DNA of 53,614 nt from Lachnospiraceae bacterium (GTDB taxonomy: Bacteria; Bacillota; Clostridia; Lachnospirales; Lachnospiraceae): contig JAFUGL010000036.1 of assembly GCA_017469405.1 (NCBI GenBank), positions 1 to 53,614 of the forward strand, written 5' to 3'. Positions within the stretch are counted from its first letter, which is position 1; the number at the start of each line of letters is the position of its first letter. The translations under genes were made by a program, and so were the position numbers. Below the pieces are notes generated by a model. The model was given only the letters and a program-made list of their open reading frames with translations. It did no database searches and had not been told where the DNA came from. Positions 11,175 to 32,711 of this stretch are shown here, piece by piece.

Positions 11175-11219
11175 TTGAACTACAAATTCATTTTTTTGTC
11201 TGCAAAAATGAGGTAAAAT
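11175..11219 (+). promoter_or_regulatory. Shared TTGAAC-type promoter (copy 1)
   Basis: TTGAACTACAAATTCATT begins at 11175 and the -10-like TAAAAT is at 11214-11219, exactly 33 bases after TTGAAC. This matches the geometry of the copies at 20904, 21145, 22557 and 30600. It lies directly behind the metA terminator and drives the phosphatase cluster. An alternative extended -10, TGATATAAT, is at 11227-11235. Confidence 0.55.
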
Positions 11220-11286
11220 TTTATTGTGATATAATATTACATGTAATAAAGATTATTCGTACTTAATGCATAAAGAGGAGTTGTAT

Positions 11287-12093
11287 ATGGCTACTTATGT
11301 AATATCAGATGTACATGGCTGTTACACTGCTTTCCAAGAACTGCTTAGGAAGGCTGGTTTTGATGAAGAAAATGATGAACTGATAATAGCAGGAGACATA
11401 ATTGACAGAGGAAAAGAAAATATTGAAATGCTCAGATACCTTGAAAATGCTCCGGATTATGTGACATTTTTGATGGGAAATCATGATTATGATTTTATGG
11501 GCTATTGTGAAAAGTTTTGTAATGCCTTTGATAATGGCAGATTTGACGGTGATTTTACTGAAATGAAGAAGGATGACTGGCTTTTGAATAGCTTTGTAAG
11601 TGATAAGTATGGGACAGTAAGTCAGTTATTAATTAATTATGATGTTACAATAGAGGATTTTAGAAAATGGTATAACCTTTTTAAAGACCTGGATTATTAC
11701 CGTATTAAAGAAATAAATGATAAGAAATATATAATAGTTCATGCAGGATATATCACTGATAAAGGATATTCAAGGTTTTGTATGAAAGGACTGTCTCCAA
11801 GTTATCTAAGATGGGGCATAGAGTATTTTTATATGTGGGCTCGGTCTGACGGTTACTTCGAAGGCGGAATGAATAATGCAACAGTAATATTTGGTCATAC
11901 ACCTACAATACTTGATGAAATGTTCTATAACGATGGCAAGGTGTGGATTAAGAGAAATAAAGAAAAAAATTGCAGATTCATTGACATAGATTGTGGGTAT
12001 GTATATAAAGACAAGTTTGCTAATGCTAATATGGCAATTATTAGGCTTGAGGATGAGAAGATAACTTATCTTGAGGATAAAAAAGGAAGGTGA
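11287..12093 (+). CDS. PPP-type metallophosphatase
   Basis: A 268-residue calcineurin-like phosphoesterase of the PPP / ApaH-PrpE type. It has the metal motifs SDVHGC (near residue 7), GDIIDRG, MGNHDY, VHAGY and FGHT in order. The substrate (protein phosphate, dinucleotide tetraphosphate or RNA end) cannot be told from sequence. GAGGAG six bases before 11287 fixes the start; the upstream in-frame ATG at 11266 lacks an RBS. It is the first gene of a cluster rich in phosphoesterases. The last 47 bases recur almost exactly at 15519-15565, upstream of another phosphoesterase gene. Confidence 0.82.
   Translation: MATYVISDVHGCYTAFQELLRKAGFDEENDELIIAGDIIDRGKENIEMLRYLENAPDYVTFLMGNHDYDFMGYCEKFCNAFDNGRFDGDFTEMKKDDWLLNSFVSDKYGTVSQLLINYDVTIEDFRKWYNLFKDLDYYRIKEINDKKYIIVHAGYITDKGYSRFCMKGLSPSYLRWGIEYFYMWARSDGYFEGGMNNATVIFGHTPTILDEMFYNDGKVWIKRNKEKNCRFIDIDCGYVYKDKFANANMAIIRLEDEKITYLEDKKGR
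12047..12093 (+). repeat. 47-bp direct repeat, copy 1
   Basis: The 3' end of the phosphatase gene, including the stop, matches 15519-15565 at 45 of 47 positions. The second copy has an earlier in-frame stop. This marks a duplicated gene end. Confidence 0.9.
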
Positions 12094-12117
12094 TTTTGCT
12101 TTAATATTCATGGTCAT
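12094..12117 (+). repeat. 24-bp fragment of a second phosphoesterase gene
   Basis: These 24 bases, directly after the phosphatase stop, are identical to 15931-15954 inside the later metallophosphoesterase gene, where they encode the FCFNIHGH region. Here they are noncoding, so this looks like a recombination scar. Confidence 0.85.
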
Positions 12118-12157
12118 AGGTTAGCTATTAATGAGAGGCTGTTTGGAGGAAACAATT

Positions 12158-12340
12158 ATGGATAATGGTACATATATTGATGGAGAAAAATTATATATGT
12201 TTATGGATGAAACATCGGCTCCATATAAAGATGGAGAAAATCCATATACTAATTTTGAAGATCCAAAATTTGATGAATATATTGCTAAAAAATACAATTT
12301 GATTTTCAAAAATGAGGATGAAGGCGATTCAGGTGCATAA
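12158..12340 (+). CDS. Small acidic protein, unknown
   Basis: A 60-residue acidic protein beginning MDNGTYIDGEKLYMFMDE. TTGGAGG followed by eight bases fits the ATG at 12158, so the upstream in-frame ATG at 12131 is unlikely. No family is recognised. Its TAA overlaps the ATG of the next small ORF by one base (TAATG), which argues for translation as part of the cluster mRNA. An antitoxin, immunity or regulatory role is possible but unsupported. Confidence 0.6.
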   Translation: MDNGTYIDGEKLYMFMDETSAPYKDGENPYTNFEDPKFDEYIAKKYNLIFKNEDEGDSGA

Positions 12341-12426
12341 TGGTAAGAATAATATTTTTAAACAAAAATCATAATGTGGCTTTTTTTCATTGCCTGCCTG
12401 AAGGTAAAGAAGGAATATTAAAATGA
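12340..12426 (+). CDS. Very small coupled ORF (28 residues)
   Basis: The ATG at 12340 overlaps the preceding stop (TAATG), and its TGA overlaps the next start (ATGA at 12423-12426). It encodes MVRIIFLNKNHNVAFFHCLP and eight more residues. Overlap at both ends suggests that it is a real coupled cistron or a translation-passing leader rather than chance. No homolog is recognised. Confidence 0.45.
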   Translation: MVRIIFLNKNHNVAFFHCLPEGKEGILK

Positions 12427-12932
12427 GCAGAATCAAAAAATTTTCAATAAGATGGCATGATGCTTGGAACAATTATGAAGAAGGATATTATTCGTTGCTT
12501 GAAATAAAGGCAGATGGAAGCCCTGTACTTTGTTTTATGGCAAATAATGAGGCGGTTAGAATAGAACTGGGAGATCGAGAAACGGAATTTATTGATAAAA
12601 TGAATGAAATCGGAATTGAAAAGCTGAATAATAATAGCTTTACTGAGTTTTGCCATGATGGTGATACTTGGTTAATATACATAATATATGATGATAAGGA
12701 CATAGCTGCGGAGGGACATTGCACTATGCCAAGAGAATTAAGAAACCTTATATCATATCTTAATTCTGAGTGGAATCTGCCCATATGTAAAATGATATCG
12801 TATTGGCTTAAAGAAAAAAACGGCAAAATGCCTAAGCCAAGATATGGTCAGAGAAAATGGCTTGATGATGATTGGAGATTAAATAATCGAGAAGATTTTG
12901 TAAAACTTAAGATGGAAAGTCTTACAAATTAA
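12423..12932 (+). CDS. Unknown cytoplasmic protein
   Basis: A 169-residue protein beginning MSRIKKFSIRWHDAWNNYEE. It is mildly acidic, without signal peptide or membrane segment, and Trp/Tyr-rich. Alternating strands in the middle (DGDTWLIYIIYDD) suggest an alpha/beta fold like small immunity-type proteins, but no family can be named. It is coupled to the 28-residue ORF upstream and followed 67 bases later by the P-loop kinase gene. Confidence 0.6.
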   Translation: MSRIKKFSIRWHDAWNNYEEGYYSLLEIKADGSPVLCFMANNEAVRIELGDRETEFIDKMNEIGIEKLNNNSFTEFCHDGDTWLIYIIYDDKDIAAEGHCTMPRELRNLISYLNSEWNLPICKMISYWLKEKNGKMPKPRYGQRKWLDDDWRLNNREDFVKLKMESLTN

Positions 12933-12999
12933 GCTAACGGAAAATACAGAATGTATAGAACAGGAGCAACAGGATATTTTTGAGAAGGAAGCAGGCAAA

Positions 13000-13908
13000 A
13001 TGCAGAAACTTTCATTTGTAATTGGAGTAACAGCTACAGGAAAGACATATTTTATAGAAAACAGCTTTAAGGATAAGAATGTTGAAATTCTCAATATATA
13101 TGATTACCAGATAAAAGTATATGATGAAGAAGGATATAATGATTCAATTCCTATAGATGCAGAATTCAGATGCCTTAAGAAAGCCAATGATATGTTTCTT
13201 CATGATATTATTGAAAAACTCAAAGATGGAAAGAATGTTGTAGCAGAGCATACCTTATATAAAGCTAAGAGGCGTATTGCATATATTGAAGAAATAAGAA
13301 AAGCAGCAGATGTAAATATTGAAGTATATGTTATGTGTCCAACAGATATTCTTTGGGAAGAAAATATCAAAAAAAGAAAGCTTTTAAAAGATTTTAATGG
13401 TTATAAAAGAGAATATACGGAATTGTTTGAATTCCCTAATTTATCGGAAGGATTCGATGCCATATATGAGGTTTCAGATGGAAAAGTGTTTAAAAGGGAG
13501 GATCCTTTAAAACCGGAGATTGTTGAAAAAGCCAGAAAAGAAATAAAAGAAGAAAATGAGAGAATATTTAAAGAAAACAAATCCCGAATGGAGAAAGATA
13601 AGCTGATCAAAAGTATGAACACACGACCATTTTGGCATTATTGTGAGGTGTGCGGAAAAAAAGAGTTTATTACAGCACAGGATGCTTTTGACAAAGGCTG
13701 GGATTATCCGCCTAGAATGGGCTTTTTCGGATTACTTTCTCCACGGAAATGTGGGAAATGCTCTATAAATGATACTTTGTATTGGAAATTAATTATTGAA
13801 GATGGATCAAGTGATTCTTCATATACTGATTTAACGCCTGATGAACTTATTACGCTTAGACGTATACAAGAAGAGCCCGAGAGCCTTATAGAGACGGAAG
13901 AAGAATAA
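13000..13908 (+). CDS. P-loop kinase-like protein with C-terminal zinc ribbon
   Basis: 302 residues. The Walker A motif GVTATGKT is at residues 9-16, at the very N-terminus as in AAA_33 / polynucleotide-kinase / zeta-toxin-type kinases. A basic lid-like stretch (KAKRRIAY) lies near residue 90. The C-terminal third has two Cys pairs (CEVCGKK and CGKC), a likely zinc ribbon. The substrate is unknown; a 5'-OH nucleic-acid kinase is one option, given the neighbouring phosphoesterases and HAD phosphatase (inference). There is no ligase or methyltransferase fusion as in Pnkp/Hen1. Confidence 0.6.
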   Translation: MQKLSFVIGVTATGKTYFIENSFKDKNVEILNIYDYQIKVYDEEGYNDSIPIDAEFRCLKKANDMFLHDIIEKLKDGKNVVAEHTLYKAKRRIAYIEEIRKAADVNIEVYVMCPTDILWEENIKKRKLLKDFNGYKREYTELFEFPNLSEGFDAIYEVSDGKVFKREDPLKPEIVEKARKEIKEENERIFKENKSRMEKDKLIKSMNTRPFWHYCEVCGKKEFITAQDAFDKGWDYPPRMGFFGLLSPRKCGKCSINDTLYWKLIIEDGSSDSSYTDLTPDELITLRRIQEEPESLIETEEE

Positions 13909-13992
13909 ATCATTTAATTCGCCTGTATTTAAAACTCTTGAGTAAACTTATTGAGTTATGAAATTACGACGAATTATAAGGGGGACAAATTA

Positions 13993-14226
13993 ATGTGTAA
14001 CGCATGTTTTAATGACAAAAAGTTAAAAACAAAAAATATTTTTACTGTCGAATATACGGACAGTATTATCACAATTAAAAATGTTTCTTGTTTAAAATGT
14101 GCTATATGTGGAGAAATTTTTTTTACAGATAAGGTATCAGAAAAAATTGAATTGATTGTTAATGCTAATAAAAGACTAAAAAATGAAATATCAATTCTTG
14201 ATTATAATTTAGATGAAATTAGGTGA
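13993..14226 (+). CDS. YgiT-type zinc finger protein
   Basis: A 77-residue protein with C-x2-C (CNAC) near the N-terminus and C-x2-C-G-E (CAICGE) about 35 residues later, the layout of YgiT/MqsA-type zinc fingers. It lacks the HTH domain that full MqsA antitoxins carry. A G-rich RBS precedes the ATG at 13993; the TTG at 13951 is not supported. No MqsR- or RelE-like toxin is adjacent. Its stop overlaps a GTG just upstream of the next gene. Confidence 0.65.
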   Translation: MCNACFNDKKLKTKNIFTVEYTDSIITIKNVSCLKCAICGEIFFTDKVSEKIELIVNANKRLKNEISILDYNLDEIR

Positions 14227-14231
14227 TAAAA

Positions 14232-15002
14232 ATGATTTATATTACAGGAGATACACATGGAGATGTAAGGAGATTTTCAACCAAATCATTTCCAGAACAA
14301 AAAGAAATGAATAAATGTGACTATGTTGTGGTTTTAGGCGATTTCGGACTTGTTTGGGACTGGAAGGGCGAGTCGAAGCATGAAAAAAACTGGCTTGATT
14401 GGCTAGAAGATAAGCCGTTTACGACACTTTTTATAGATGGGAATCATGAAAACCATGATAGATTAAGTAGAATGCCGGTTGATATATGGAAGGGTGGAAA
14501 GGTTCATAAGATAAGACCGTCGGTTATACATCTTATGAGAGGGCAGATATATGATATAGATGGCTGTAAGATATTCACCTTTGGAGGTGCAAGCAGTCAT
14601 GACATAAGGGACGGCATCTTTGAACCCGGAGATCCAAGGATAAAAAGATGGTATTATGATTATACCAAGCTTTTTCGCATCAACAAGAGAACATGGTGGG
14701 AACAAGAACTGCCTTCTTGTGAAGAAATGAATGAAGGACTTGAAAACCTTGAAAAAGCAGGTTGGAAGGTTGACTATATATTCACTCACTGTCCTTCTAC
14801 AAGTACGACAACCTTAATTGGAGATGGCTTGTATGAGCAGGATAGGCTTACAGATTATCTTCAAGGCATTAAAGAAAGGCTTGATTTTAAGAAATGGTTC
14901 TTTGGGCATTTTCATATAGATAAGCAGATAAATGACAAAGAGATATGTTTGTTTGAGCAGATACATCGCTTGATGAATACATGCAATAGGGATTTTGAGT
15001 AG
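14232..15002 (+). CDS. Metallophosphoesterase
   Basis: A 256-residue calcineurin-like phosphoesterase with GDTHGD (residues 6-11), LGDFGLVWD, DGNHENHDRL, THCPST and FGHFH, a complete set of metal ligands. It is of the short cytoplasmic type, and the substrate is not predictable. AGGTGA eight bases upstream favours the ATG at 14232 over the overlapping GTG at 14223. It overlaps or abuts the YgiT-type gene and is probably cotranscribed with it. Confidence 0.82.
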   Translation: MIYITGDTHGDVRRFSTKSFPEQKEMNKCDYVVVLGDFGLVWDWKGESKHEKNWLDWLEDKPFTTLFIDGNHENHDRLSRMPVDIWKGGKVHKIRPSVIHLMRGQIYDIDGCKIFTFGGASSHDIRDGIFEPGDPRIKRWYYDYTKLFRINKRTWWEQELPSCEEMNEGLENLEKAGWKVDYIFTHCPSTSTTTLIGDGLYEQDRLTDYLQGIKERLDFKKWFFGHFHIDKQINDKEICLFEQIHRLMNTCNRDFE

Positions 15003-15025
15003 TTATGTGTTTAAGAGGTGTGATT

Positions 15026-15475
15026 ATGTTAACAATATTTCTTGATATAGATGGTGTACTTAATAAAAGTTCGGAATTAACACAAATGTACAGTCTTAAC
15101 GATGACTGCATAAAGGAATTTGCATCATTTTGTAAAAGTGTAAATGGAAAAATAGTGCTTTCATCTTCTTGGAGGGAAGGTTTTATCAGCACGCATAATG
15201 CTTCCAATACTCCACAGATAAAAGAATTAGAGGCAAGATTTGACAGCTATGGTTTAATAATCGCTGATAAAACTCCCAAATTAAGAGGACGAAAAAGAGA
15301 TGATGAAATAAAACGATACCTTTATTTTAATGATGTTAAGAGATACATAATAATAGATGATGATGAAGATGAGTACAGAGAACTATGTGATGAGAATTAT
15401 TTTGTTAATTCATCCTATGGATTTACATATGATGATGCTAAAAGGATAAGAAAGAAATGGAAGAAAATAATATAA
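15026..15475 (+). CDS. HAD-like phosphatase (RNA-repair-type HAD)
   Basis: 149 residues. Motif I DIDGVLN, motif II LSSSWR, a Lys/Arg-rich stretch (RGRKRDDEIKRYL) and an acidic motif IIDDDEDEY form a compact HAD core without a cap domain. The S-S-S-W-R phrase is typical of the HAD_18 group, some of which are annotated as RNA-repair-like. GAGG seven bases before 15026 fixes the start, so the ATG at 15005 is rejected. It sits between phosphoesterase genes. Confidence 0.72.
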   Translation: MLTIFLDIDGVLNKSSELTQMYSLNDDCIKEFASFCKSVNGKIVLSSSWREGFISTHNASNTPQIKELEARFDSYGLIIADKTPKLRGRKRDDEIKRYLYFNDVKRYIIIDDDEDEYRELCDENYFVNSSYGFTYDDAKRIRKKWKKII

Positions 15476-15499
15476 CAGAAGATATTAGTATATCAAATT

Positions 15500-15565
15500 A
15501 AGATTGAAATTATAAGGTTTGAGGATGAGAAGATAACTTATCTTGAGGATTAATAAGGAAGGTGA
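15500..15565 (+). pseudogene. C-terminal remnant of a PPP-type phosphatase gene
   Basis: The frame starting at 15500 reads KIEIIRFEDEKITYLED then stop (15551-15553), matching the C-terminus of the phosphatase at 11287-12093 (IIRLEDEKITYLEDKKGR). No start codon or catalytic part is present. 15519-15565 is the second copy of the 47-bp repeat, and its GGAAGGTGA now serves as the RBS of the next gene. Confidence 0.8.
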
Positions 15566-15570
15566 AGAAA

Positions 15571-16428
15571 ATGATAGCAAGCTTATATCAGGTTTTTAGG
15601 CATTGGTCTGATAAGGGTTCGGTTTATATAATATCAGATACTCATTTCGATGACTCTGATTGTAAATATATGGATGAAAATTGGATAACTCCGGATGAAC
15701 ATATAGCATTGATTAATAAATATGTTCGGAAAAATGATACATTTATTCATCTTGGAGATGTAGGAAATCCGGAATATATAAGAAAAATAAATGGTTATAA
15801 GGTGCTTATAATGGGGAATCATGACCAGTCGGCGAGCAGATTTTCAGAGTATTTTGATGAAATATATACAGGTCCGTTAATGATATCGGATAGGATTCTG
15901 TTATCACATGAACCAATATATAATCTGGATTTTTGCTTTAATATTCATGGTCATGACCATAATAATGATAATAAAGGGGATAAAAATCATATTAATCTTG
16001 CTTCAAATGTATGTGGTTATAATCCTTTAAATCTTGGTAAGCTTATAAAGAACGGTGGTATAAGTAAAATACCTACAATACACAGATTGACAATAGATGA
16101 GAGGAAATTTTGTACTGATGATTTCAACAAATATTTAATAGCTTTAGAAAAGGTTGTATCAAAAAGATATCCGGTAGAAATGTATAATATCGGAGAATAT
16201 CAGGAGGGCGCCGTATGTATTGAATCTACTGCAGCTGGGTGGATTGTCTTTAATGCCGAAAGAGGAAATAGATATTATGAAATTAAATGTGATACTATCC
16301 TTATGGCATGCATGGAGTTTATAAGAAAAATGACTCATAATGTTGAAGATATAGCGGAAATGGAAGATGAATTAATAGAATACATAGATATTATGGATAA
16401 AAATACATATAGTTATGATATGAAGTAA
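15571..16428 (+). CDS. Metallophosphoesterase with extra C-terminal domain
   Basis: 285 residues. The N-terminal phosphoesterase domain (~1-165) has ISDTHFD, LGDVGN, GNHDQ, LSHEPI and NIHGHDH. A ~110-residue C-terminal domain follows, containing GAVCIESTAAGWIVFNAERG. That part resembles polymorphic-toxin immunity domains (Imm59-like, from memory, low confidence). The RBS lies in the duplicated phosphatase tail just upstream. Bases 15931-15954 also occur as a noncoding scar at 12094-12117. A fusion of a phosphoesterase with an immunity-like domain would be unusual. Confidence 0.72.
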   Translation: MIASLYQVFRHWSDKGSVYIISDTHFDDSDCKYMDENWITPDEHIALINKYVRKNDTFIHLGDVGNPEYIRKINGYKVLIMGNHDQSASRFSEYFDEIYTGPLMISDRILLSHEPIYNLDFCFNIHGHDHNNDNKGDKNHINLASNVCGYNPLNLGKLIKNGGISKIPTIHRLTIDERKFCTDDFNKYLIALEKVVSKRYPVEMYNIGEYQEGAVCIESTAAGWIVFNAERGNRYYEIKCDTILMACMEFIRKMTHNVEDIAEMEDELIEYIDIMDKNTYSYDMK

Positions 16429-16452
16429 ATATCTACAAATAGAAAATTAGAA

Positions 16453-16542
16453 ATGAGGATTGAATATGCCGATTTTTGTAAGCACAATCATATGGAGGAT
16501 CACACAAATTGCTATTATAAGCATTTGTTAAGTAAGGATTAA
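16453..16542 (+). CDS. Candidate small Cys/His-rich ORF
   Basis: 29 residues including FCKHNHMEDHTNCYYKHLL, a Cys/His pattern that could bind metal. It is in frame with, and 24 bases beyond, the stop of the preceding phosphoesterase gene; the frame is open between them. Its TAA overlaps the next ATG (TAATG at 16540-16544). There is no clear RBS, so it may be a gene-end remnant rather than a gene. Confidence 0.35.
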   Translation: MRIEYADFCKHNHMEDHTNCYYKHLLSKD

Positions 16543-16850
16543 TGTTAGTTAAAAAAGAATTGAAAGAAAATTATACTTGTTTAATCTCACTAAAATTATT
16601 TGATGAGCTTATAATAATAATAAACTATGATGACTGGATGTTCATGTGTAAGAATAGATTTGGAACTGAAACACCATCTTATGAAGAAATACAAGCAGAA
16701 TTTGTTACAGGTACGGGAATCACAAAAAACAAGCGTGAACTTTGGAGAGAAGCTAATGCTAGATTTACAGAATATATTAATGACCTAAAAGAAATACGCT
16801 CCATTGATTTAAACAAAGCTGCAAGAGACATTTTAAGCAATAAAATGTGA
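16542..16850 (+). CDS. Unknown small protein
   Basis: A 102-residue protein beginning MLVKKELKENYTCLISLK. The first half is hydrophobic and strand-like, and the second half is helical and charged (KRELWREANARFTEYINDLKEI). No family or membrane segment is recognised. It is coupled by TAATG to the small ORF upstream. Probably cytoplasmic. Confidence 0.5.
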   Translation: MLVKKELKENYTCLISLKLFDELIIIINYDDWMFMCKNRFGTETPSYEEIQAEFVTGTGITKNKRELWREANARFTEYINDLKEIRSIDLNKAARDILSNKM

Positions 16851-16905
16851 AAAATATTGAAATGATACATAATAATGTTAAAAGATAATAAGGAGAGGAC
16901 AATAA

Positions 16906-17451
16906 ATGGGAATTAAGTTATATACATCCGACCTGCACTTTGGTCATAGTAATGTGATAGGATTTGATCATCGTCCGTTTTATGATGTGGATGATATGGA
17001 CAGATGTCTTATTAAACTGTGGAATAGCAGGGTTTCACCGGATGATGAAGTTTATATAGTTGGAGATTTGTGCTTTAGAAATAACAGACCTGCAGAGTGG
17101 TATTTAAAGCAGCTGAAAGGTCACAAGCATCTTGTTATAGGAAATCATGATCAAAAGCTTTTAGAAAATAAAAAGGCGATGAGCTATTTTGAAACAGTAG
17201 ATAAGATAATGTACATAAAGGATGAAGATAAGAATATATGTCTGTGTCACTATCCAATAGCTGAATGGAATCATTTTCATAGAGGCAGTTATCACATATA
17301 TGGTCATATACATAACAGGACAGATGATGCATATATGTATATGAAAAAATATGAAAATGCATTAAATGCAGGTTGCATGATCAACAATTATACACCGGCT
17401 TCGTTTAATGAGTTGGTTAGAAACAATAAGATTTTTAAAGAGAAAAATTAA
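16906..17451 (+). CDS. Metallophosphoesterase, short form
   Basis: A 181-residue phosphoesterase with SDLHFGH, VGDLCFR, IGNHDQ, CHYPIAEW and YGHIHN, a full metal-ligand set. This matches the compact family often annotated as phosphoesterase or phosphohydrolase and found in phage and accessory regions. A strong RBS (AAGGAGAGG) precedes the start. It is the fourth phosphoesterase in 6.2 kb, each from a different subgroup. Confidence 0.82.
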   Translation: MGIKLYTSDLHFGHSNVIGFDHRPFYDVDDMDRCLIKLWNSRVSPDDEVYIVGDLCFRNNRPAEWYLKQLKGHKHLVIGNHDQKLLENKKAMSYFETVDKIMYIKDEDKNICLCHYPIAEWNHFHRGSYHIYGHIHNRTDDAYMYMKKYENALNAGCMINNYTPASFNELVRNNKIFKEKN

Positions 17452-17467
17452 TTGAGGGAATGATAAA

Positions 17468-17803
17468 ATGTATCAATTAACAATTATATTTAATGAAAAC
17501 GAATTAAAAAAAAGAGGTATTTCCGAAGATAAATATATGAATAAAATAAAGGAATACTATAATACTCATGATGTGACTGAAGTTGAACACAATGTATTTC
17601 AAGCAATGGGTGAACATGCGGCAGTAAGTCTTATTTTGCCTATTATAGATTTAACAAATAAAGATTTTGAATTTATATTTTTATTGGACAAATGCGAAGC
17701 TATACTTGGAGAAGAAATTGATGATATTATTGAAGATACTATTTGGTGGTATAAAGAACGTGGATATAAAGTTAGGAATATATCGAAGTGTTGTACTATA
17801 TAA
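17468..17803 (+). CDS. Unknown acidic protein, paralogous to the product at 20116
   Basis: A 111-residue protein with no named family. Its whole length aligns by eye with the first half of the protein encoded at 20116-20820: both share a T-E-[VI]-E-H-N-V-F core, a hydrophobic strand after it, and an acidic E-E-D-x-x-x-W/D stretch. It lies 16 bases after the short phosphoesterase gene. Cytoplasmic; possibly an immunity-type or regulatory protein (inference). Confidence 0.55.
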   Translation: MYQLTIIFNENELKKRGISEDKYMNKIKEYYNTHDVTEVEHNVFQAMGEHAAVSLILPIIDLTNKDFEFIFLLDKCEAILGEEIDDIIEDTIWWYKERGYKVRNISKCCTI

Positions 17804-17839
17804 TATCAGATTGAAAATGTAATAAACGGAGGAAAAAAT

Positions 17840-18172
17840 ATGGTTAAAGATGAAAACAATATAAATAAGCAATATGGTGTTTATGATAGTAATTCAAGAG
17901 AAATTGTTGAAGGCACAGAAGAGGAGCTTATGAATGCCGGCTTTAATTACATATGTGGAAGCAAAAAAGCTGCCTACAGAAGGATATTCATAATGCTTAC
18001 AGAAGAAGAGCTTAAAAGTGATATAGGACTTATGATAGAAAAAGAAGCTTATGCAGATATTTTTAAACATGCTCCTGAGGACTATAAGCCTGGATATTTT
18101 ATAAAAAAAAGATTGGAAGAAAGATTGGAAAAAGATAGGGCCAGAGTAAAATTTTTGTCGGAAAATGAATAA
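17840..18172 (+). CDS. Unknown charged helical protein
   Basis: 110 residues beginning MVKDENNINKQYGVYDSNS. The second half is strongly helical and charged, ending in an R-L-E-E-R-L-E-K-D-R-A-R stretch with coiled-coil character. CGGAGG precedes the start. It is the last gene of the phosphatase cluster before a strong terminator. No function is assigned. Confidence 0.5.
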   Translation: MVKDENNINKQYGVYDSNSREIVEGTEEELMNAGFNYICGSKKAAYRRIFIMLTEEELKSDIGLMIEKEAYADIFKHAPEDYKPGYFIKKRLEERLEKDRARVKFLSENE

Positions 18173-18293: not shown

Positions 18294-18300
18294 ACTGTAA

Positions 18301-19724: not shown

Positions 19725-19843
19725 TACTTTTTATTGTACTTATCACATCCAGCCTCTAATTTAGGAAAATTCAAACAATCTTTTCTTCTTTTAAAATATT
19801 CATCTGAAACATATTTGTTGTATAATACATTTATAGTATATAA
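19724..19843 (-). pseudogene. C-terminal remnant of an unknown gene
   Basis: On the - strand a 39-codon frame with no start codon ends at 19724. It reads as plausible protein (YVSDEYFKRRKDCLNFPKLE and nine more residues) and runs into a perfect terminator. About 140 bases upstream on the same strand, a good RBS (GAGGAGG) and ATG lead to a four-codon frame. This fits a gene that has decayed internally, leaving its start and end. The product is not recognised. Confidence 0.55.
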
Positions 19844-20032
19844 TTATTATTGAGGAGGCAAAAGATACCAGATAAACTCTGTTGTTATGAGATTATTTTT
19901 TTATATGTTTTTTATAATGTCGTAAATCAAATTATCTAACAAAGAATTGATAATTTAAATGATTATTTTTTTAACATACCTATTACCTCCTCAATTAATC
20001 GGACTACAGAGAGTGCTGTAGTCCGATTTTTA
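19821..20032 (+). ncRNA. Candidate small RNA or decayed small gene
   Basis: On + there is a consensus -10 (TATAAT 19821-19826), an AGGAGG-like site at 19852-19858 without a fitting start codon, about 130 AT-rich bases, and a perfect 13-bp terminator stem AATCGGACTACAG / CTGTAGTCCGATT (19997-20028) with a T-run. The predicted RNA is ~200 nt and antisense to the decayed - strand gene. The -35 region is poor. A 12-residue hydrophobic ORF (MRLFFYMFFIMS) starts with ATG inside it. Confidence 0.4.
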
Positions 20033-20078: not shown

Positions 20079-20115
20079 GATAACAATCAATAATAGAAAA
20101 AAGGAGGAAATGATA

Positions 20116-22525: not shown

Positions 22526-22558
22526 GAGCTGCTGTAGCGATATGGCAGCTCTTTTTTT
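22526..22558 (+). terminator. Rho-independent terminator
   Basis: GAGCTGC (22526-22532) / GCAGCTC (22545-22551) then seven T. The last two T are also the first bases of the next TTGAAC element. Confidence 0.85.
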
Positions 22559-22601
22559 GAACTTTAAATGCATTGAAACAACACTTTATAAAAAGTATCA
22601 T
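22557..22601 (+). promoter_or_regulatory. Shared TTGAAC-type promoter (copy 5)
   Basis: TTGAACTTTAAATGCATT starts at 22557 inside the terminator T-run. TATCAT is at 22596-22601, a gap of 33. It would drive XRE gene 3, with an ~107-base untranslated leader. Confidence 0.5.
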
Positions 22602-23047: not shown

Positions 23048-26000
23048 ATGAAATTAGTAAACAGATATTTAGCAAAAAATAATAAATATGAATTTATGTC
23101 AATGGAAGAAATATATATGGATTATAACACAGCAATAATAGCACATAGAGATGAAAAAGACTATGAAAAGGCTATTTATTATTATAAATTATCAATTAAG
23201 AAAAAAGTATGTAAAAAAGTATGTTTAAATAACATATTTGATATATACATCAGTTTAGAAAAGTATGATGAGGCGTTGAAAATGCTTGAATCGTATCAAC
23301 AATATATTGATAATAATGATTTTCTGTATTATAAACTTAAGATTTTTTGTGCATTTAAAAAATCAAATAATTTTGATGAAATAGTTGATACTTTTGATAA
23401 ATTTTATGAAACTTTGAAGACAAAGAGGAAAAAAGTAGATTTAAGACTTTCAGAAGCACTATTAATGAATCAGCTTGGATATTATAATAATGCAATAGAA
23501 CTATATATGGATTTATTAAATAACATTAATGATTTCAATGATAGAATCAAAGAAGAAAGACAAAAAATCAATTCTTTGATTGGTATTTGCTATGCTTATT
23601 ATAAATTAAAAGATATTGATAATACAAAAAAATATGCGAAGTATATATTAGAAATAAATGAAAAAAATATATTTGCATATACGATAAATAACTTTGATAA
23701 TTATGAGCTTTATTTTGATGCTCTTGAACCAGAGGATGTATTGGAAAACTATGGATTAAATGATCAAGATTATAATTATATTGAATCATTTGATTTGAGT
23801 GCTGTTTTTAATAAGTCGGAATATTCTTATAATATAATAAATGAATTTGATGATTTTGTAGGTACCGAAGAAGATGCAATAAAATTGCTTGATTCTGTTG
23901 TGGATTTTGATGGAAAAAAACATTTTGCTTTTGCTAAAATTATTAAACAGATTTTAAATAGAGATGAAGAAATAAAATATAAAGATAAAATAAATGAAAA
24001 AGAAATGTTCCTTAATATAGCGAAAGGATATTTTCGAATTTCAAATTTAATTTGTTATTTAAAAGATAAATATAATCATTATTCTAAATCGTTTATTGGG
24101 GTTGAAACGCTTATAATTGATCCCCCAGATTCATATTTTTTTCTAAAAGCAACTAATGCATTATATTTTTTTAAAAAGTCTATAAGCATATATGAAGGGC
24201 TGAATGTTAAAGATGCATATTATAATTATGCAATTGATTACTGTTCTAATACTGATAATTTTGGAATGACTAGAAATTTAAACAAAGATCAAAAAAAGCT
24301 TATTGGATTAAATTTATATTTTAATAATGATGTAGAAAAGTTTAATAAAATGATACTTGACTATAATTGTCAATTTTCTATAAAGAAATTATTAAAAAAA
24401 ATGATTTTTTGTTATGTAGAGGATTTTTTTAATGCTGATCATGATAAATCTCTTAGGCAAAATATAGAATATGACATAAAAAATTATTTTCTACTAACCG
24501 GAATTGTAAATAGTATAAATTTGCCATTTTTTAATTTCTTTTATCCAAACTTTGTAAAATTTTTCAAATTAATTAATAAATATATTGATAAAAATATAGA
24601 GAGAAAAATTGCCAATATTAAATATTTTGATTATTTATTTGATGAATCTGAAAAAATAATATCTAATATTAATAATAATCCTACTGAATTTGAAAATGAT
24701 GTTATACTTCCTGTGGTTATTCATTTTAGAGCTTTAACAGCTAAATATATAAATGAAATATATTTATTAAATAAGCCTGAAATAGAAATAGATGATTCTG
24801 ATAAGTTTTTCTTTGATAAAGATAATAAATTATTGAAAATAAATTTAAAAATAAAAATAAAGAATAGAGTAATAAAAATATTAAAAATACAATTATATTC
24901 TAATAATTATACGTTTCGTGATTTGAGTAATACTAGTGCATTTTCAAAAGCTTTCACAGTAAATGTTCCAAATCATAAAATATTTGACGGATATTTAGAA
25001 TTATATTCTATTATAGAATATGGTTATTATGTTAGTAAAAATAGAATAGAATGGGAGAAAATAAGAAAAAACATAATTTTACCATTGGATGAATTTGAAA
25101 AAATAGATAATAAGTTTAGACACAACATATCCAAGGTTAATGACGAAGATATGTTTTTTGGTCGTGACGAAATAGTTAATGATATAGTTGATGATTTAAT
25201 AAATACCGGTAACGGAAAATATATCGCACTATATGGTCAATACAGGTCAGGTAAGACAACAATTCTTAATTTTATTGAGAAAAAATTAAGAAAAGATGAT
25301 AATAATATTATAGCAAATTTGCATTCTTTAGCTAGAATTGGTAGTGAGAAAAGTAGCAATTCTGAAATTGAATTTGGTATTATGCGTTCAATTGTAGCTA
25401 TATTTGAAAAAGAAATAAAAAATAATAAAACTTTATCAGAAGAATACTCAAAATACGAAATAAGTAAAGTTGATATAAAGAATGAACTAAAAGAAAATAA
25501 AAATGAGAGTGATATATCTAATATATTCTTTGGATTTCTGGAGGATATGATATCTGCATTAAAAGAAATTAATCCTTCTTTGCGTTTTTATATTTTTATT
25601 GATGAATTTACAAGTTTATATGAATGGATAAGATTAGACAGAATTAGTAAGAAAGAAGAAAAAGATAAAATTGATGGCAGAGTTTTATTGATTTTAAAAG
25701 ATTTGGTTGAGAACTTAAATGTATCAATTGTTTTGGTTGGACAAGATAATATGGTTAAATTTGTCAGTGAATTCAGCAATGAATTTGGAGGTGTTGATTT
25801 TAAAGAGGTTACCTATCTTGATAAAAAAGATGCATTGAAGATGATAGATGAGCCTGTTAAATATAATAGAGATGGTAAATTAATATCAAGGTACTTAGAT
25901 GATACTCTTGAAAATATATATAATTTAACAGCTGGAAGTGCATTTCTAATCGCTCAGATGTGTTCAGAATTGATTAATTATATGAACAAAAATGAACGTA

Positions 26001-26320
26001 TATTCGTTACAAAAGAACTGTTAAATTGTTTTATTGAAGAATATTTGAATGACATAAATATTGATTCTAAAAGATTATTTCATCCGTTATATACAGATTT
26101 GAATTATGTAGGAGAACAACAGGCAGATAGAATAAATCAAAATATTCAATTACTTGATAAGATTATATTGGATGATTTAACTGAAAGTAATGAAAATAAG
26201 GAGCTATTGGATGAATTAGTAAAAAGAAAAGTAATATGTTATAATGAAGGAAAATATAAAATAATTGTTGATTTATATGCTAAATGGCGTGAAAGAGTGA
26301 TTAAAACAGCTGATAAATGA
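23048..26320 (+). CDS. TPR - AAA/STAND-type ATPase, probable defence protein
   Basis: 1090 residues. The N-terminal ~230 residues are tetratricopeptide-like (KDYEKAIYYYKLSI, EKYDEALKMLE, GYYNNAIELYMDLL). A long uncharacterised middle follows, then a beta-rich section near 590-700. The C-terminal ATPase opens with MFFGRDEIV and has Walker A GQYRSGKTT (730-738), Walker B FYIFIDEF (Asp852, Glu853) and a C-terminal winged-helix-like part. Sensor-first, ATPase-last order is seen in STAND-like immune ATPases. Codon use is much more AT-rich than in the housekeeping genes, indicating transfer. The next gene starts 13 bases later. Confidence 0.72.
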   Translation: MKLVNRYLAKNNKYEFMSMEEIYMDYNTAIIAHRDEKDYEKAIYYYKLSIKKKVCKKVCLNNIFDIYISLEKYDEALKMLESYQQYIDNNDFLYYKLKIFCAFKKSNNFDEIVDTFDKFYETLKTKRKKVDLRLSEALLMNQLGYYNNAIELYMDLLNNINDFNDRIKEERQKINSLIGICYAYYKLKDIDNTKKYAKYILEINEKNIFAYTINNFDNYELYFDALEPEDVLENYGLNDQDYNYIESFDLSAVFNKSEYSYNIINEFDDFVGTEEDAIKLLDSVVDFDGKKHFAFAKIIKQILNRDEEIKYKDKINEKEMFLNIAKGYFRISNLICYLKDKYNHYSKSFIGVETLIIDPPDSYFFLKATNALYFFKKSISIYEGLNVKDAYYNYAIDYCSNTDNFGMTRNLNKDQKKLIGLNLYFNNDVEKFNKMILDYNCQFSIKKLLKKMIFCYVEDFFNADHDKSLRQNIEYDIKNYFLLTGIVNSINLPFFNFFYPNFVKFFKLINKYIDKNIERKIANIKYFDYLFDESEKIISNINNNPTEFENDVILPVVIHFRALTAKYINEIYLLNKPEIEIDDSDKFFFDKDNKLLKINLKIKIKNRVIKILKIQLYSNNYTFRDLSNTSAFSKAFTVNVPNHKIFDGYLELYSIIEYGYYVSKNRIEWEKIRKNIILPLDEFEKIDNKFRHNISKVNDEDMFFGRDEIVNDIVDDLINTGNGKYIALYGQYRSGKTTILNFIEKKLRKDDNNIIANLHSLARIGSEKSSNSEIEFGIMRSIVAIFEKEIKNNKTLSEEYSKYEISKVDIKNELKENKNESDISNIFFGFLEDMISALKEINPSLRFYIFIDEFTSLYEWIRLDRISKKEEKDKIDGRVLLILKDLVENLNVSIVLVGQDNMVKFVSEFSNEFGGVDFKEVTYLDKKDALKMIDEPVKYNRDGKLISRYLDDTLENIYNLTAGSAFLIAQMCSELINYMNKNERIFVTKELLNCFIEEYLNDINIDSKRLFHPLYTDLNYVGEQQADRINQNIQLLDKIILDDLTESNENKELLDELVKRKVICYNEGKYKIIVDLYAKWRERVIKTADK

Positions 26321-26333
26321 AAGGGTAAACCAT

Positions 26334-28184
26334 ATGGAAAATACTTTTAAGATAAATGGTATTGCGGTAGATGATGAAATTATAGGCAAAAAAATTGAGA
26401 TGGAAGAACTGAAGGAAGAGTATTTAAATGGTAATAATAGTGTAGCATATGCTTTGGTAGGACTTCCTAAAACCGGAAAAACTTCTTTTGCTAAGAATAT
26501 TTTTAAAAATAAAGATGAAAAAATTCTATTTATTCAATGTGATTTAAAGATGTTTAAAGATTATTATGGAATCTGGAAAAATATATCAACGAAAATAAAA
26601 AGATATATTGATAATAATTTTAATAAAGATGATTTGTATAATTCTTTTATTGATTCACTTTATTGTTTGTCCGGTATTAGCAATGATATGGAATGGGCGG
26701 ATTTCATTTTATATGTTGAAGATGTTTTTGTTGGTTTAGAAGAATTAGATGTTAAAATAATTTTTTTGTTTGAATCCTTTGATTTTGCTGACAAATTGTT
26801 TGATGATATACAAATGTTTCAGGTTTTTAGGGATGTATTATCAATTTACAGTAATGTTTCCTCACTTGTTATTTCAAGGACTCCGCTTCATAGATATAAA
26901 AATGGACAGGCATCTGGTTTTTATAATATTTTTAAAATAATAAATTTTGGTGCATTTAATGAAAATGAGATGAATGAGTTTACTGCTAAACTGTTACATT
27001 ATGATATTTCATTGTCAGATGAACAAATAAATAAATTAGATTATTATTCCGGAGGATTGCCATATTTAGTTTCAATATTTGGACATTACATTATTGAAGA
27101 TTATTCTAAAGGTGGTTCAATTGATATTGATAATATTTTAAAAGAACATTCTAAAATAATTAATGATTATTATAGGGACTGTCTAAAATATTTTAAGGAT
27201 TCTGACTATTTGAAATATATATTACCTTTTTCGATTGGACCTAAAATTGGAATAAATAGTCAGATTAAGGAAGATATAATTAATCTGAAATATCTATATG
27301 AAACTGAAGAAGAATATATTGTTTTATCAAAATATTTTAGAAATTTTCTGACAAGTGATTTGCTTGAAGGTATTTCTTCTTGGGAAAGTATAATCGGTAC
27401 AGAGAAAAGACTTAAATATCTTGTGAAAAGAGAATATACAAGAATAGTGAAAAAATTTCATATATTTGGCGAAGATGAAGAATCAATACTGATTGGGATA
27501 ATGTCAAATTGCGATATCAGAGCTTTTGCAAGATATGATGGATACATTCTGAATAATTTGGAGAATTATTCACAGGTTTCAAATTATTTAGATGTTATGT
27601 CTATTGGAGATGTTATTAAAATAATAAAAAATTGTTGGATGGATATCTTTAGTGAATATTTTAATAATGATTCATTTGACAAGTGGAATTCAGCTTTTCA
27701 ATTATGTGAAAGAGCACGTAATCCATTTGCTCACGGACATGAAGAGTTTTTAAATGAAAGCGAAACAAATATTACAAATCAGTATTGCATAAAGATTCTT
27801 GAATTGTTGAGTGATGATAATGTTTTTAAAATAATAGTTGATGATGATTATTTAGCGGCAGCAAGATTTTTTGAAGATAATAGCAGCGATGAAACTAATT
27901 TGACTAATGATAATAGAAGTAGTAATTCAAACTCATCTGATTATTTTGAACCTGATCAGGATTTTATCGAGCAAGAAGCTGATTTTATTATTGAAATAAT
28001 AAAAAACACAGTAACAAAAACAAATATAAAAGGATATGTTCAATATAATAACAAAAAATATCAGGCTGTTATTCCAAAGAATCATTGCACTTTGGAACTT
28101 CTTGGTAAAAGTGTTGGAGATGTCATCAGAGTAAGAACAACAAAAATTAATTTTGGGCAGTATGAGGTTTTGCCTATAGAATAA
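26334..28184 (+). CDS. P-loop NTPase with C-terminal HEPN RNase-like domain
   Basis: 616 residues. A small N-terminal NTPase has Walker A GLPKTGKTS (43-51); the Walker B strand (IIFLFES) lacks the usual Asp-Glu pair, so hydrolysis may be weak. The C-terminal half contains a Swt1-type HEPN region with RNPFAHGHEEF, the R-x4-H RNase motif (Arg462, His467). A short beta-rich tail (~555-616) resembles an OB or cold-shock-like fold. HEPN domains are metal-independent RNases common in abortive infection. It is very AT-rich like its upstream neighbour, with which it probably forms an effector-sensor pair. Confidence 0.7.
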   Translation: MENTFKINGIAVDDEIIGKKIEMEELKEEYLNGNNSVAYALVGLPKTGKTSFAKNIFKNKDEKILFIQCDLKMFKDYYGIWKNISTKIKRYIDNNFNKDDLYNSFIDSLYCLSGISNDMEWADFILYVEDVFVGLEELDVKIIFLFESFDFADKLFDDIQMFQVFRDVLSIYSNVSSLVISRTPLHRYKNGQASGFYNIFKIINFGAFNENEMNEFTAKLLHYDISLSDEQINKLDYYSGGLPYLVSIFGHYIIEDYSKGGSIDIDNILKEHSKIINDYYRDCLKYFKDSDYLKYILPFSIGPKIGINSQIKEDIINLKYLYETEEEYIVLSKYFRNFLTSDLLEGISSWESIIGTEKRLKYLVKREYTRIVKKFHIFGEDEESILIGIMSNCDIRAFARYDGYILNNLENYSQVSNYLDVMSIGDVIKIIKNCWMDIFSEYFNNDSFDKWNSAFQLCERARNPFAHGHEEFLNESETNITNQYCIKILELLSDDNVFKIIVDDDYLAAARFFEDNSSDETNLTNDNRSSNSNSSDYFEPDQDFIEQEADFIIEIIKNTVTKTNIKGYVQYNNKKYQAVIPKNHCTLELLGKSVGDVIRVRTTKINFGQYEVLPIE

Positions 28185-28215
28185 TCATCAACCACCACAA
28201 AGGAGAAAATCATTT

Positions 28216-30513
28216 ATGAATGAATTTGATATAGCAACAGCGATTTCACGACTTGAAACATTTTCTATGCCATATGGTGCTGAGAAGGAAATAGAGTATA
28301 TGATTTCTGATAAGCTTACCAAGATGGGCATATATCATCACAGCACAAGCAGAGTTAAGACAAAAGAGTCCCTTGGGCATAAAATCGGATCCGGTAAGTA
28401 CAATACCAATAAAAAAACAGAGGATTATTCGCTTGAGTGCAGTGACAAGATTCAAGATCTTATCGGTATCAGAATACTTGTATATTTTGTTGAAGATATA
28501 AATATTGTAGAAAAGGTTCTTGAAGATATGTTTGGCAAGGGAGCCTGGTCAAAGTCCAATCATAGTTCGGGAGAATTTGATCCTACTAAGGTAAATGGTG
28601 TATTTAGACTCAATAAAGCATTGAGAGTAAATGGTTCTGAAAGATGGAATGATATATGTGTTGATGATACATTCGAGGTGCAGATAAAGACTGTTCTTTT
28701 CCAGAGCTGGCATGAGATAGAACATGATATGAGATATAAAAATAAGGAGCTTTGGAAAGATTTTGATAAAATGGGCAGGAAGTTTAATTCGATTTTGGCT
28801 ACGCTTGAGCTTTGCGATGATTCAGTTACTTCCATACTTGAAGATCTTTCGTATAGCTGTTACAAAAAGGCTCAGGAAGAGGTAGAAAGTGACGTTTGGT
28901 ATCTTGAAAGCGTGATAAAGACACATTTAAGAATAAAGCTCCAGAGTACCAGAAAAGTCTTTTCTGATTTTCTTGATAATTCCAATCTTGACTATGATTT
29001 AGAATTAGATGATGCAATAAAAAAATGCGATGGAAAAGCTTTATTTAAAAGATATTTAACCTGGAAAATTAATACATTGGAAGAAGATGAGATTAATCAT
29101 CTTATTGGAGTATTTTCAAGCAAGAGTTTTATGAAGCGTGTTATAAAAACTAAGAGAAATTCTGTTGTTTTAAAACTTATTGATTATGATAATCTTCCTT
29201 TAAATGTCTTTACTATTTCTATATTGGTATATCTGTATCATTATCAATATAAGGACTCTGAGCCGGATGATTTAAATGTCATTAAGGATAAGCTTTATAT
29301 ATTTTTAAGAAGAGAAAAAAACTTCAATAAAAATGTAGGAAGGCATATATGTAAATTTAAAACTTATCCTATATTTCAGCGCCGCTTTGATGTTTATCCT
29401 GCACAGCATGTAGGAGATGAAATATCATCAGAGAAAGTTTTTAGAAATACTTTTAATTATATAAAAAAATGGCTTGCAGACAAGCTTGATGATTATGATT
29501 TTGGTGATGAAGAAAGAACGGGTTTTGATAAGTTTTGTAACCTTTTTGATGACGAGGTTGTTGCATTGGAAGAGGATAGATATGAGTTCACTCTTTCATC
29601 AGAGTATGATATAAGGGCGCTTTATGTACCGAAGCTTAAGACTGCAGCAATTAAGATAGCTGAACCTGGCAGTGACAGCATAGGAAATGATAGACAGTTT
29701 GGTAGATTTTATTTTACCAATATTTCTATCAGCGACAATGGAAGCTTTGTGGAACTTGCAGTAAAGGTTGAGTGTCAGGAACCGGAGAAAAATATAATCA
29801 AAGCAGTTTCTACCAGACCGTTATTTATACATGAATTATTTAAGGATAATGATATTGATATAACCGAACACGGTGTTGGTCTTTCGTTTAAATGGTTTAA
29901 AAAGATTGATGACAAGGGGAAGTTCACATCACGTCCATACGTTATAAACTTAGATGGAGATGAAGAATTAAATAAAATCAAAAATGTTTTTTTTGAGGAT
30001 AGACGTGATATACTGCCGGTTATATTTGTAAATGTAGATAAATTGAAGAGTTTTGATTTATCTGATAATGTATCCAAACCATATTTTAGCATCAATTATC
30101 TTACAGACAGGATGTTTGGATATGCTCATGTGATTTCCTATAACAATGAAAATGTTGATAAAATTAAGGAAATTTTCAAGGATAATGATAAGGTAAAAGC
30201 AGCTATTGAGGATAGTTCGATATTTGCAGCGGTTGATAAAGGCTATTCCATAGAGTGTTTTAATATCAATGATTATAGGGACTATATTGCATTTTCAAAG
30301 AAGGTTGAGGAATATATAAAAACCATGATGACGGAACGCACCTATAGCTTTGATAATGTTTTGTTTTTTAGAGAGTTAAAGAATGCTTATTATAAATCAA
30401 AGTCCAATGAAAGAGATACAATAATAGGACTTGAAAAAGAGATTGAAGAACTTAAGAAAGCCTATGAGCAAAAGATAGATGAATTAAATAGAAGGCTTAA
30501 GGAAAATAATTAA
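28216..30513 (+). CDS. Large protein with RelA/SpoT-type nucleotidyltransferase domain
   Basis: 765 residues. Residues ~20-215 match the RelA/SpoT synthetase fold: SRVKTKESLGHK (45-56), DLIGIR (81-86), and FEVQIKTVLFQSWHEIEHD (153-171) with the catalytic E-x-Q and the W-x-E-I-E-H block. The G-loop G-Y-x-S-x-H that stacks the acceptor guanine in (p)ppGpp synthetases is absent (NGVFRLNKAL instead). The acceptor may therefore be something else, as in tRNA-modifying toxSAS enzymes (inference). The C-terminal ~550 residues are unknown and end in a coiled coil. Base use is less AT-rich than in the two genes before, suggesting separate origin. Confidence 0.7.
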   Translation: MNEFDIATAISRLETFSMPYGAEKEIEYMISDKLTKMGIYHHSTSRVKTKESLGHKIGSGKYNTNKKTEDYSLECSDKIQDLIGIRILVYFVEDINIVEKVLEDMFGKGAWSKSNHSSGEFDPTKVNGVFRLNKALRVNGSERWNDICVDDTFEVQIKTVLFQSWHEIEHDMRYKNKELWKDFDKMGRKFNSILATLELCDDSVTSILEDLSYSCYKKAQEEVESDVWYLESVIKTHLRIKLQSTRKVFSDFLDNSNLDYDLELDDAIKKCDGKALFKRYLTWKINTLEEDEINHLIGVFSSKSFMKRVIKTKRNSVVLKLIDYDNLPLNVFTISILVYLYHYQYKDSEPDDLNVIKDKLYIFLRREKNFNKNVGRHICKFKTYPIFQRRFDVYPAQHVGDEISSEKVFRNTFNYIKKWLADKLDDYDFGDEERTGFDKFCNLFDDEVVALEEDRYEFTLSSEYDIRALYVPKLKTAAIKIAEPGSDSIGNDRQFGRFYFTNISISDNGSFVELAVKVECQEPEKNIIKAVSTRPLFIHELFKDNDIDITEHGVGLSFKWFKKIDDKGKFTSRPYVINLDGDEELNKIKNVFFEDRRDILPVIFVNVDKLKSFDLSDNVSKPYFSINYLTDRMFGYAHVISYNNENVDKIKEIFKDNDKVKAAIEDSSIFAAVDKGYSIECFNINDYRDYIAFSKKVEEYIKTMMTERTYSFDNVLFFRELKNAYYKSKSNERDTIIGLEKEIEELKKAYEQKIDELNRRLKENN

Positions 30514-30530
30514 TAATATCAAAATAAAAT

Positions 30531-30595
30531 AGCCTATGATATGTACATTCTTACGGTTTTATCCGTTAGATAGGATACATATCATAGGCTTTTTT
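30531..30595 (+). terminator. Terminator with long looped stem
   Basis: AGCCTATGATATGTA (30531-30545) pairs perfectly with 30576-30590, then a T-run. The 30-base loop holds a small ACGG/CCGT hairpin. Confidence 0.85.
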
Positions 30596-30599
30596 ATTT

Positions 30600-30644
30600 T
30601 TGAACCATAAGTGAATATGCTTTCAAAATTTATAATAATATAAT
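30600..30644 (+). promoter_or_regulatory. Shared TTGAAC-type promoter (copy 6)
   Basis: TTGAACCATAAGTGAATAT starts at 30600 right after the terminator. TATAAT at 30639-30644 gives a gap of 33. It drives the clpP-like / VirD4-like pair. The 14-base core is identical to copies at 20904 and 21145, about 9.5 kb away. Confidence 0.7.
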
Positions 30645-32708: not shown

Positions 32709-32711
32709 CGT

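Follow-up and report, generated by a model that had tools for sequence, protein, structure and literature searches.

A shared box at six promoters of a Lachnospiraceae genomic island is probably a divergent member of a wider family of XRE-associated promoters

Lambda CI activates the PRM promoter from an operator near position -42, next to the -35 element. The LexA/SOS box of Firmicutes is the palindrome GAAC-N4-GTTC. Controller (C) proteins activate from a distal site located upstream of a weak promoter (PMC6237814). In this study, we analyzed a 53,614-nucleotide (nt) stretch of a Lachnospiraceae bacterium genome (GenBank assembly GCA_017469405.1, contig JAFUGL010000036.1, positions 1 to 53,614 of the forward strand; hereafter, the window), in which six gene units are preceded by a box that begins with TTGAAC. 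The original prediction, made from the sequence alone, proposed that one undescribed regulator acts on these units from about -51 to -33, the position of a class II activator. Comparative genomics supports this proposal, because the same box geometry recurs across the bacterial family, often beside small genes of the XRE (lambda-repressor-like) class and with overlapping target families. Our preferred explanation, to which we assign a probability of roughly 0.6, is that a small XRE protein, probably P0001 (22694-22942, forward strand), binds near -43 and activates the units. Both XRE regulators and class II sites are familiar; the network would be newly described. In the literature searched, which covered few subscription papers, we found no description of a box that recurs through the family together with matching XRE variants and these targets.

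All six copies of the box were found at the predicted places on the forward strand, and three of them are identical over TTGAACCATAAGTG. Each keeps TTGAAC, AA at positions 10-11, T at position 13 and AT at positions 16-17, as originally proposed. The first site (11175-11219) comprises the box TTGAACTACAAATTCA (11175-11190) and the -10 hexamer TAAAAT (11214-11219), has no clear -35 element and lies ahead of a phosphatase cluster. At the second (20033-20078), the box TTGAACTAAAAGTTCA is followed by TTGAAG at the -35 position and by a weak -10 element, TACTAT (20073-20078). The third (20904-20948; box TTGAACCATAAGTGTA) and fourth (21145-21189; box TTGAACCATAAGTGCA) both carry the extended -10 element TGCTATAAT, with TATAAT at 20943-20948 and 21184-21189, and precede a 49-amino-acid open reading frame (ORF) at 20974 and a 130-amino-acid ORF, respectively. 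The fifth (22557-22601; box TTGAACTTTAAATGCA) has TTGAAA as -35, a spacer of 17 bp and TATCAT as -10 (22596-22601), and lies ahead of the XRE gene that begins at 22694 as called. Finally, the sixth (30600-30644; box TTGAACCATAAGTGAA) has TATAAT at 30639-30644 and precedes a ClpP-VirD4 gene pair. The predicted spacing, with the -10 hexamer exactly 33 nt after TTGAAC, was seen in five sites (11175, 20904, 21145, 22557 and 30600), each hexamer matching the consensus at five or six of its six positions. The gap of 34 nt claimed for the one remaining copy is also there, at 20033, but TACTAT matches at only 4/6 positions and a better hexamer, TATGAT, lies at 37 nt. Likewise, the statement that no normal -35 is present stands for four sites and needs correction at two, namely 22557 (TTGAAA, 5/6, 17-bp spacer) and 20033 (TTGAAG, 4/6, 18-bp spacer). 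The box resembles the palindrome TTNNAC-N5-GTNNAA: TTGAAC, the N5 gap and the conserved T and A of the second half-site are present in all six copies, the G of its GT is kept in four, and the base after the box is T instead of A in every case. From the first site to the sixth, the arms pair at 4, 5, 3, 4, 3 and 3 of the five positions.

Several comparisons set the motif apart from chance. Leave-one-out matrices ranked each site first in the window (16.8-25.4 bits, against 11.9 or less for non-sites). The pattern TTGAACNNNAARTKNAT matched seven places in the 2.75-Mb genome, six of which are the window sites (reversed control, 0), and a tolerance of up to three mismatches to a consensus gave 67 matches (control, 32). 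Of these, none of the 61 other than the six sites had a -10 hexamer of at least 5/6 at 32-34 nt, versus five of the six sites in the island, the segment at 11127-32677 that contains them all. When six intergenic points of the island were drawn at random and gaps of 14-45 nt were considered, one gap common to at least five points never occurred in 20,000 trials; the maximum, four points on one gap, was reached three times. Within the reach of these patterns, and in an assembly that is 91.5% complete, the motif with its spacing is real and confined to the island. In the 36 other genomes of the genus, the window's own motif gave 28 matches, including one locus repeated in five genomes (reversed control, 7), and in 24 genomes of other families it gave 32 matches against 32 in the control. 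Thirty of these loci were fetched and treated as background, with a 5/6 hexamer at 32-34 nt in only two of them: L011, from another family, with TATAAC at 34 nt, and L029, with TATATT at 33 nt ahead of an inverted repeat. We also rejected the five-genome locus TTGAACAAAAAATTCAT, which by eye looks like an ordinary promoter whose -35 is TTGAAC, with TAAAAT after a further 17 bp. The sequence TTGAACTATGAGTTCAT, present in two genomes (G006 and G035), coincides in part with the end of a helicase gene and was counted as background despite a 5/6 hexamer at 33 nt in both.

The window motif is a divergent member of a wider promoter family, probably of the Lachnospiraceae, in which a box TTNNAC-N5-GTNNAA is followed by a -35 element (usually ATGACA), 17 bp and the -10 element. 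This layout emerged from loci encoding P0001 homologues. Among 15 such loci of the genus, for which 240 nt upstream were read, three carried TTAAACTACAGGTTTAATGAC or TTGAATTACAGGTTTAATGAC (TTAAAC or TTGAAT boxes), and in these the -10 element followed the first six bases at exactly 33 nt. When up to three mismatches were allowed, these motifs had 15 matches in one genome (G019) and 9 in another (G013), with none in either control, and 45 matches in 16 of 37 genomes altogether. In the clear cases, the box leads into ATGACA or a similar -35, then 17 bp and the -10. The 33-nt gap is therefore the sum of 10 nt of remaining box, 6 nt of -35 and 17 nt of spacer, and the promoter is not of an odd sigma type. 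We call the window sites divergent because none has ATGACA directly after the box; five of the six share the 33-nt distance from the first half-site. A family pattern that requires a good -35 and contains no -10, TTNNACYAYNNGTNNAATGACA, had 86 matches (reversed control, 7), spread over 60 of the 397 genomes examined from the same family. Among 245 genomes drawn from the whole class, nine of them from the same family, four genomes matched; the window's own genome had two matches, and outside the family there were three, one per genome (control, 5). In a named GTDB collection, the box plus 17 bp plus TATAAT was found at 53 sites in 52 stretches, which belong by name to genera of the Lachnospiraceae or to the family as a whole, to broader groups of Clostridia, in some cases to Ruminococcus, and to Coprococcus comes. 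Box-bearing isolates include Coprococcus comes MSK.16.63 and Lachnospiraceae bacterium A2. This collection and the same-family one share one contig that carries two boxes. The spacing itself recurs in the family, as a 5/6 hexamer lay at a gap of 33 nt in 16 of 30 fetched boxes and in 0-3 at any other gap between 20 and 45 nt. A strict scan for perfect palindromes gave 18 matches, versus 5-9 at wrong gaps and 0-6 in shuffled sequences.

Small XRE genes accompany these boxes. A P0001-type gene lies within 1.5 kb of 11 of 30 and 22 of 53 box loci (E cut-offs of 1e-5 and 1e-6, respectively), versus 9 of 111 control loci at 1e-6, four of these nine being ClpP-VirD4 loci and thus not neutral. With looser criteria, 27 of the 62 distinct XRE domains in the loci covered lie no more than 1 kb from a box. 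In the window, the gene at 22694 is directly under site 22557 and two further XRE genes lie in the island. The arms of the box covary: both free pairs are complementary in 36 of the 86 family matches (shuffle mean 17.2, maximum 28) and in 23 of the 53 GTDB boxes (mean 11.3, maximum 19). Moreover, across 22 XRE-box pairs, the distance between recognition helices correlates with that between half-sites (Mantel r 0.46, p 0.0002), also when the rest of the protein is allowed for (partial Mantel 0.24, p 0.0036). Helices of the QPIYRW type go with TTGGAC in three loci, PQxxYKWQ with TTATAC or TTAAAC, and VQSxYHW with several half-sites. P0001 itself is an 82-amino-acid protein as called, with a single Pfam HTH_3 domain; its start is likely at 22715, as judged by eye from the ribosome-binding site. 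Its homologues in the genus are 45-51% identical, and the nearest solved sequences are Pli0006, P22 c2 and, weakly, C.BclI. Outside the window, the same genome has two TTGGACTATCTGTCCAATGACA boxes (G000:C6:3670 and G000:C17:12469), the first of which shows TATTAT at 33 nt and stands 713 nt ahead of a further P0001-type XRE gene.

Based on these data, each site is probably a sigma-A type promoter with an XRE operator directly upstream of the -35 position. An XRE dimer would occupy the near-palindrome of 15-17 bp, from about -51 to -35. If transcription starts some 7 nt after the -10 element, as we infer, the operator centers at about -43, near the class II position of -42 and abutting the -35. 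The bound dimer would most likely touch the sigma subunit and so compensate for the poor -35 of most of the six promoters. P0001 is the best candidate, as the box stands at its own promoter together with the best -35 element of the six (TTGAAA). In the simplest circuit, basal expression of P0001 would set up positive feedback and then co-activation of the other units. In the family at large, half-sites and recognition helices vary together, and the genes placed after the boxes include XRE genes, metallophosphoesterases, ClpP, the RNA ligase RtcB and a PARG-like macrodomain protein.

The island extends between metA (10176-11126) and the gene of a thiamine-binding protein (32938). This interval measures 21.8 kb in the window and about 300-450 bp in five relatives (G008, G014, G016, G020 and G024); judged by this empty site, the 21.5-kb segment is an insert. 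It holds the six sites, three small XRE genes and units 1-6. In another genome (G023), just two pieces matching the RelA_SpoT gene lie between metA and the leader of the thiamine genes. A sister species (G004) has a remnant by the thiamine gene, with a C-terminal piece of VirD4 and two boxes 1.2 kb apart, TTGAACTATGAGTACAT and TTGAACTATGAATACAT, where TATAAT follows TTGAAC after 32 and 33 nt. A pattern designed to cover the six window boxes and these two, TTGAACYWHRARTDHAT, had 6 matches in the window's genome, 2 in the sister species and 9 in the other 35 genomes of the genus. As the control gave 8 over all 37 genomes, only the first two stand out.

Several observations weigh against the preferred explanation. 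The ATGACA -35 usual in the family is missing from all six window promoters, and a good -35 is present at 22557 only. The -10 at 20033 is poor, the window palindromes are for the most part imperfect, and the strict palindrome scan did not retrieve the window sites. Such a box was absent from the 240 nt read at 12 of the 15 P0001 homologue loci, and the -10 enrichment in the family rests on 30 of the 86 matches. Covariation weakens when only distinct boxes are counted, with 18 of 51 in the family (shuffle mean 7.5; one of 5000 shuffles as high), and comes near chance among the 34 distinct GTDB boxes (8, mean 4.3; 87 of 2000 as high). Box type also correlates with the remainder of the XRE protein, and as strongly (r 0.47) as with the helix. 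In addition, the P0001 helix, PTAIYKW, is unlike the VQSxYHW helix found with TTGAAC/GTTCA boxes at two other loci (L329 and L342), and the best P0001 match in the sister species with two boxes is just 29% identical, in an assembly that is 84% complete.

The last two points would fit a box that is regulatory and read by another protein: P0002 (21840-22079, forward strand; Pfam HTH_3/HTH_26), P0003 (22243-22503, forward strand; Pfam HTH_26, marginally over the cut-off), or a regulator encoded elsewhere and common to the sister species. The presence of three XRE genes in the island adds to this option, which we regard as unlikely and still the strongest competitor. Against it, P0001 is the only one of the three with a box directly at its own promoter, and a chromosomal regulator should have targets beyond the island, of which none was seen among the 61 near matches. 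Somewhat less probable again is repression by the XRE protein, or a dual role set by its level. XRE proteins of this size are often repressors. The best NCBIfam match of P0001, well under the cut-off of 80 with 35.5 bits, is the RstR repressor family (NF041951), and family members usually have a good ATGACA -35, a feature that the family pattern itself demands. However, the box is upstream of the -35 and not over the core promoter or the start, and most -35 elements of the window look too poor to function unaided.

A very improbable explanation is that the sites mark the boundaries of a mobile cassette array or are copies of one duplicated promoter. By eye, a terminator-like hairpin with a T run directly precedes four of the six boxes, and the island is an insert. 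Nevertheless, the stretches between box and -10 are unrelated between sites whereas box and spacing are conserved, boxes precede many kinds of genes in many genera, and a Pfam scan of 27 window proteins found no recombinase. Chance in AT-rich DNA, to which the frequency of TTGAAC alone would point (37 occurrences, shuffle mean 33), is negligible in view of the spacing and confinement tests, the matrix ranks and the family-wide matches.

To identify targets, we chose the longest ORF that begins no more than 350 nt from the -10; of 104 sites, the window's six included, 93 had one. XRE genes make up 12 of the 93, the window's among them, and another 12 belong to a family whose members begin like MSEKMLVTQALDERDLLVKKI, one of which was tried and had no Pfam match. 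RtcB follows 10 boxes, all of the TTATAC/GTATA type (L267, L281, L283, L313, L314, L321, L335, L340, L351 and L352); two more unnamed families have 6 and 5 members, and 37 targets are singletons. Several of the RtcB loci have a short leader ORF between box and RtcB, with the recurring ending RPYRVRKSR. The window phosphoesterase at 14223 has homologues at two box loci, 122 nt downstream of the box in L338 (Coprococcus comes, 54% identity) and 181 nt downstream of it in L304 (63%). Homologues of 15562 and 16906 are found 0.9-2.3 kb after boxes at four loci (L252, L256, L312 and L342), where a single operon is unproven. In L259, a ClpP of 30% identity lies 112 nt downstream of a box. A PARG-like macrodomain protein also follows boxes, as does an SbcD-like nuclease, the latter named by eye. 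For each of the window genes at 11266 and 13000 there was a single match, which had no box, and the majority of the other window genes were unmatched in these loci.

On the window side, unit 1 (11266-18172, forward strand, as are all units) contains metallophosphoesterases, an AAA_33 ATPase (13000), an HAD_SAK_2 phosphatase (15005-15475) and small genes. The metallophosphoesterases at 11266 and 15562 score above the Pfam cut-off, 16906 scores below it, and 14223 was recognized through homology to a Pfam-scored relative. The Pfam name of HAD_SAK_2 is 'HAD domain in Swiss Army Knife RNA repair proteins'. Unit 2 (20077-20820) is a 247-amino-acid ORF without family match. The rest of unit 5 (23048-30513) encodes proteins of 1090 and 616 amino acids, both without Pfam match, and a 765-amino-acid RelA_SpoT-domain protein. 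Unit 6 (30700-32611) comprises ClpP (30700-31305) and a short VirD4-like ATPase (31319-32611). With PADLOC, the nine proteins submitted matched weakly at best, and no restriction or modification gene was seen among the island proteins scanned. Tentatively, the phosphoesterases, AAA_33 and HAD_SAK_2 of the window, with RtcB and the macrodomain elsewhere, point toward RNA damage repair or ADP-ribose handling, and NERD, RelA_SpoT, ClpP-VirD4 and the island location suggest a role in conflict or stress.

The gene pair of unit 6 is conserved in its own right (L040-L069, L094, L096-L100 and L255). ClpP adjoins VirD4 in 25 of the best 30 VirD4 loci (L040-L069), the other five having longer frames of 495-684 amino acids; frames of the paired ATPase are mostly of 390-490 amino acids. 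This ATPase might act as an unfoldase for ClpP. No description of the pair was found in the same literature. Among 28 ClpP-VirD4 loci examined, a convincing box was seen only at the window's own site, L255 and L055, with L056 as a possible case; the script used for these loci missed the window's own site because of its imperfect arms. At a VirD4-ClpP pair in G019, TTAAACTACAGGTTTA is found 163 nt upstream of the matching portion of VirD4; its -10 is at 33 nt and its -35 is poor. L255 (G019:C43) and L337, a Lachnospiraceae bacterium from roe deer cecum, have the pair, boxes and an XRE gene on one contig, with the order of the two genes reversed relative to the window.

Taken together, these target sets allow a broader and more tentative scheme, which we consider possible with the odds somewhat against it. 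Paralogous small XRE activators throughout the Lachnospiraceae, each with a private palindromic code at -43, would switch on pooled genes of nucleic-acid repair or conflict from dispersed sites and from islands. The pool would include RtcB, metallophosphoesterases, HAD_SAK_2, the PARG-like macrodomain, the SbcD-like nuclease and ClpP, possibly served by a soluble VirD4-like ATPase as its unfoldase, and the window would be an island-sized copy with its own code. If so, a control network common to many gut and rumen Lachnospiraceae would tie RtcB, phosphatases and ClpP-VirD4 to small XRE regulators. Furthermore, the covarying box and recognition helix would offer a natural series for studying how XRE proteins choose their DNA.

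Other elements of the region were also recorded. Upstream of site 20033, the noncoding stretch 19842-20032 folds strongly (z -5.6), with a long end pairing TTGAGGAGG/CCTCCTCAA and a terminator, and a stretch of the sister species that lies under a box aligns to 19822-20010 with 80% identity over 196 columns. By eye, 32700-32820, before the thiamine genes, resembles a TPP riboswitch and yet had no Rfam match at the gathering score; an Rfam search of 11000-33000 gave no match. A tandem-like repeat of about 19 bp (AGTATATGATTTGAACTTG) occupies 37666-37760, with an ORF downstream, and elsewhere in the genome a short repeat, TTACCTATAAG, is clustered on both strands at G000:C107:10918 (L074) and G000:C119:14569 (L076).

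Finally, the proposed system can be set against those known. With lambda CI at PRM and P22 c2 it would share a lambda-repressor-like helix-turn-helix dimer and a palindrome near -42 by the -35, and P22 c2 is among the nearest solved sequences of P0001. It differs in having an 82-amino-acid single-domain protein, one operator per promoter and several unrelated targets; in viral contigs, the family form of the box matched once and the window form not at all. The half-sites GAAC and GTTC recall the LexA/SOS box, whereas the gap at the fully paired site 20033 is N5, XRE-box half-sites vary by locus, and the box is positioned upstream of the -35. RptR is likewise a small regulator of an accessory (defence) island with a conserved cognate site, but it is a repressor from Gammaproteobacteria with the minimal site TAGCTA (PMC12255303). 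As for the C proteins, they are also small single-domain XRE dimers whose own gene stands under the box, the arrangement seen at 22694, and C.BclI is a weak match of P0001. Unlike the C-box, which has two dimer sites and serves a restriction-modification operon, the window has one palindrome per site and several unrelated units (PMC6237814).

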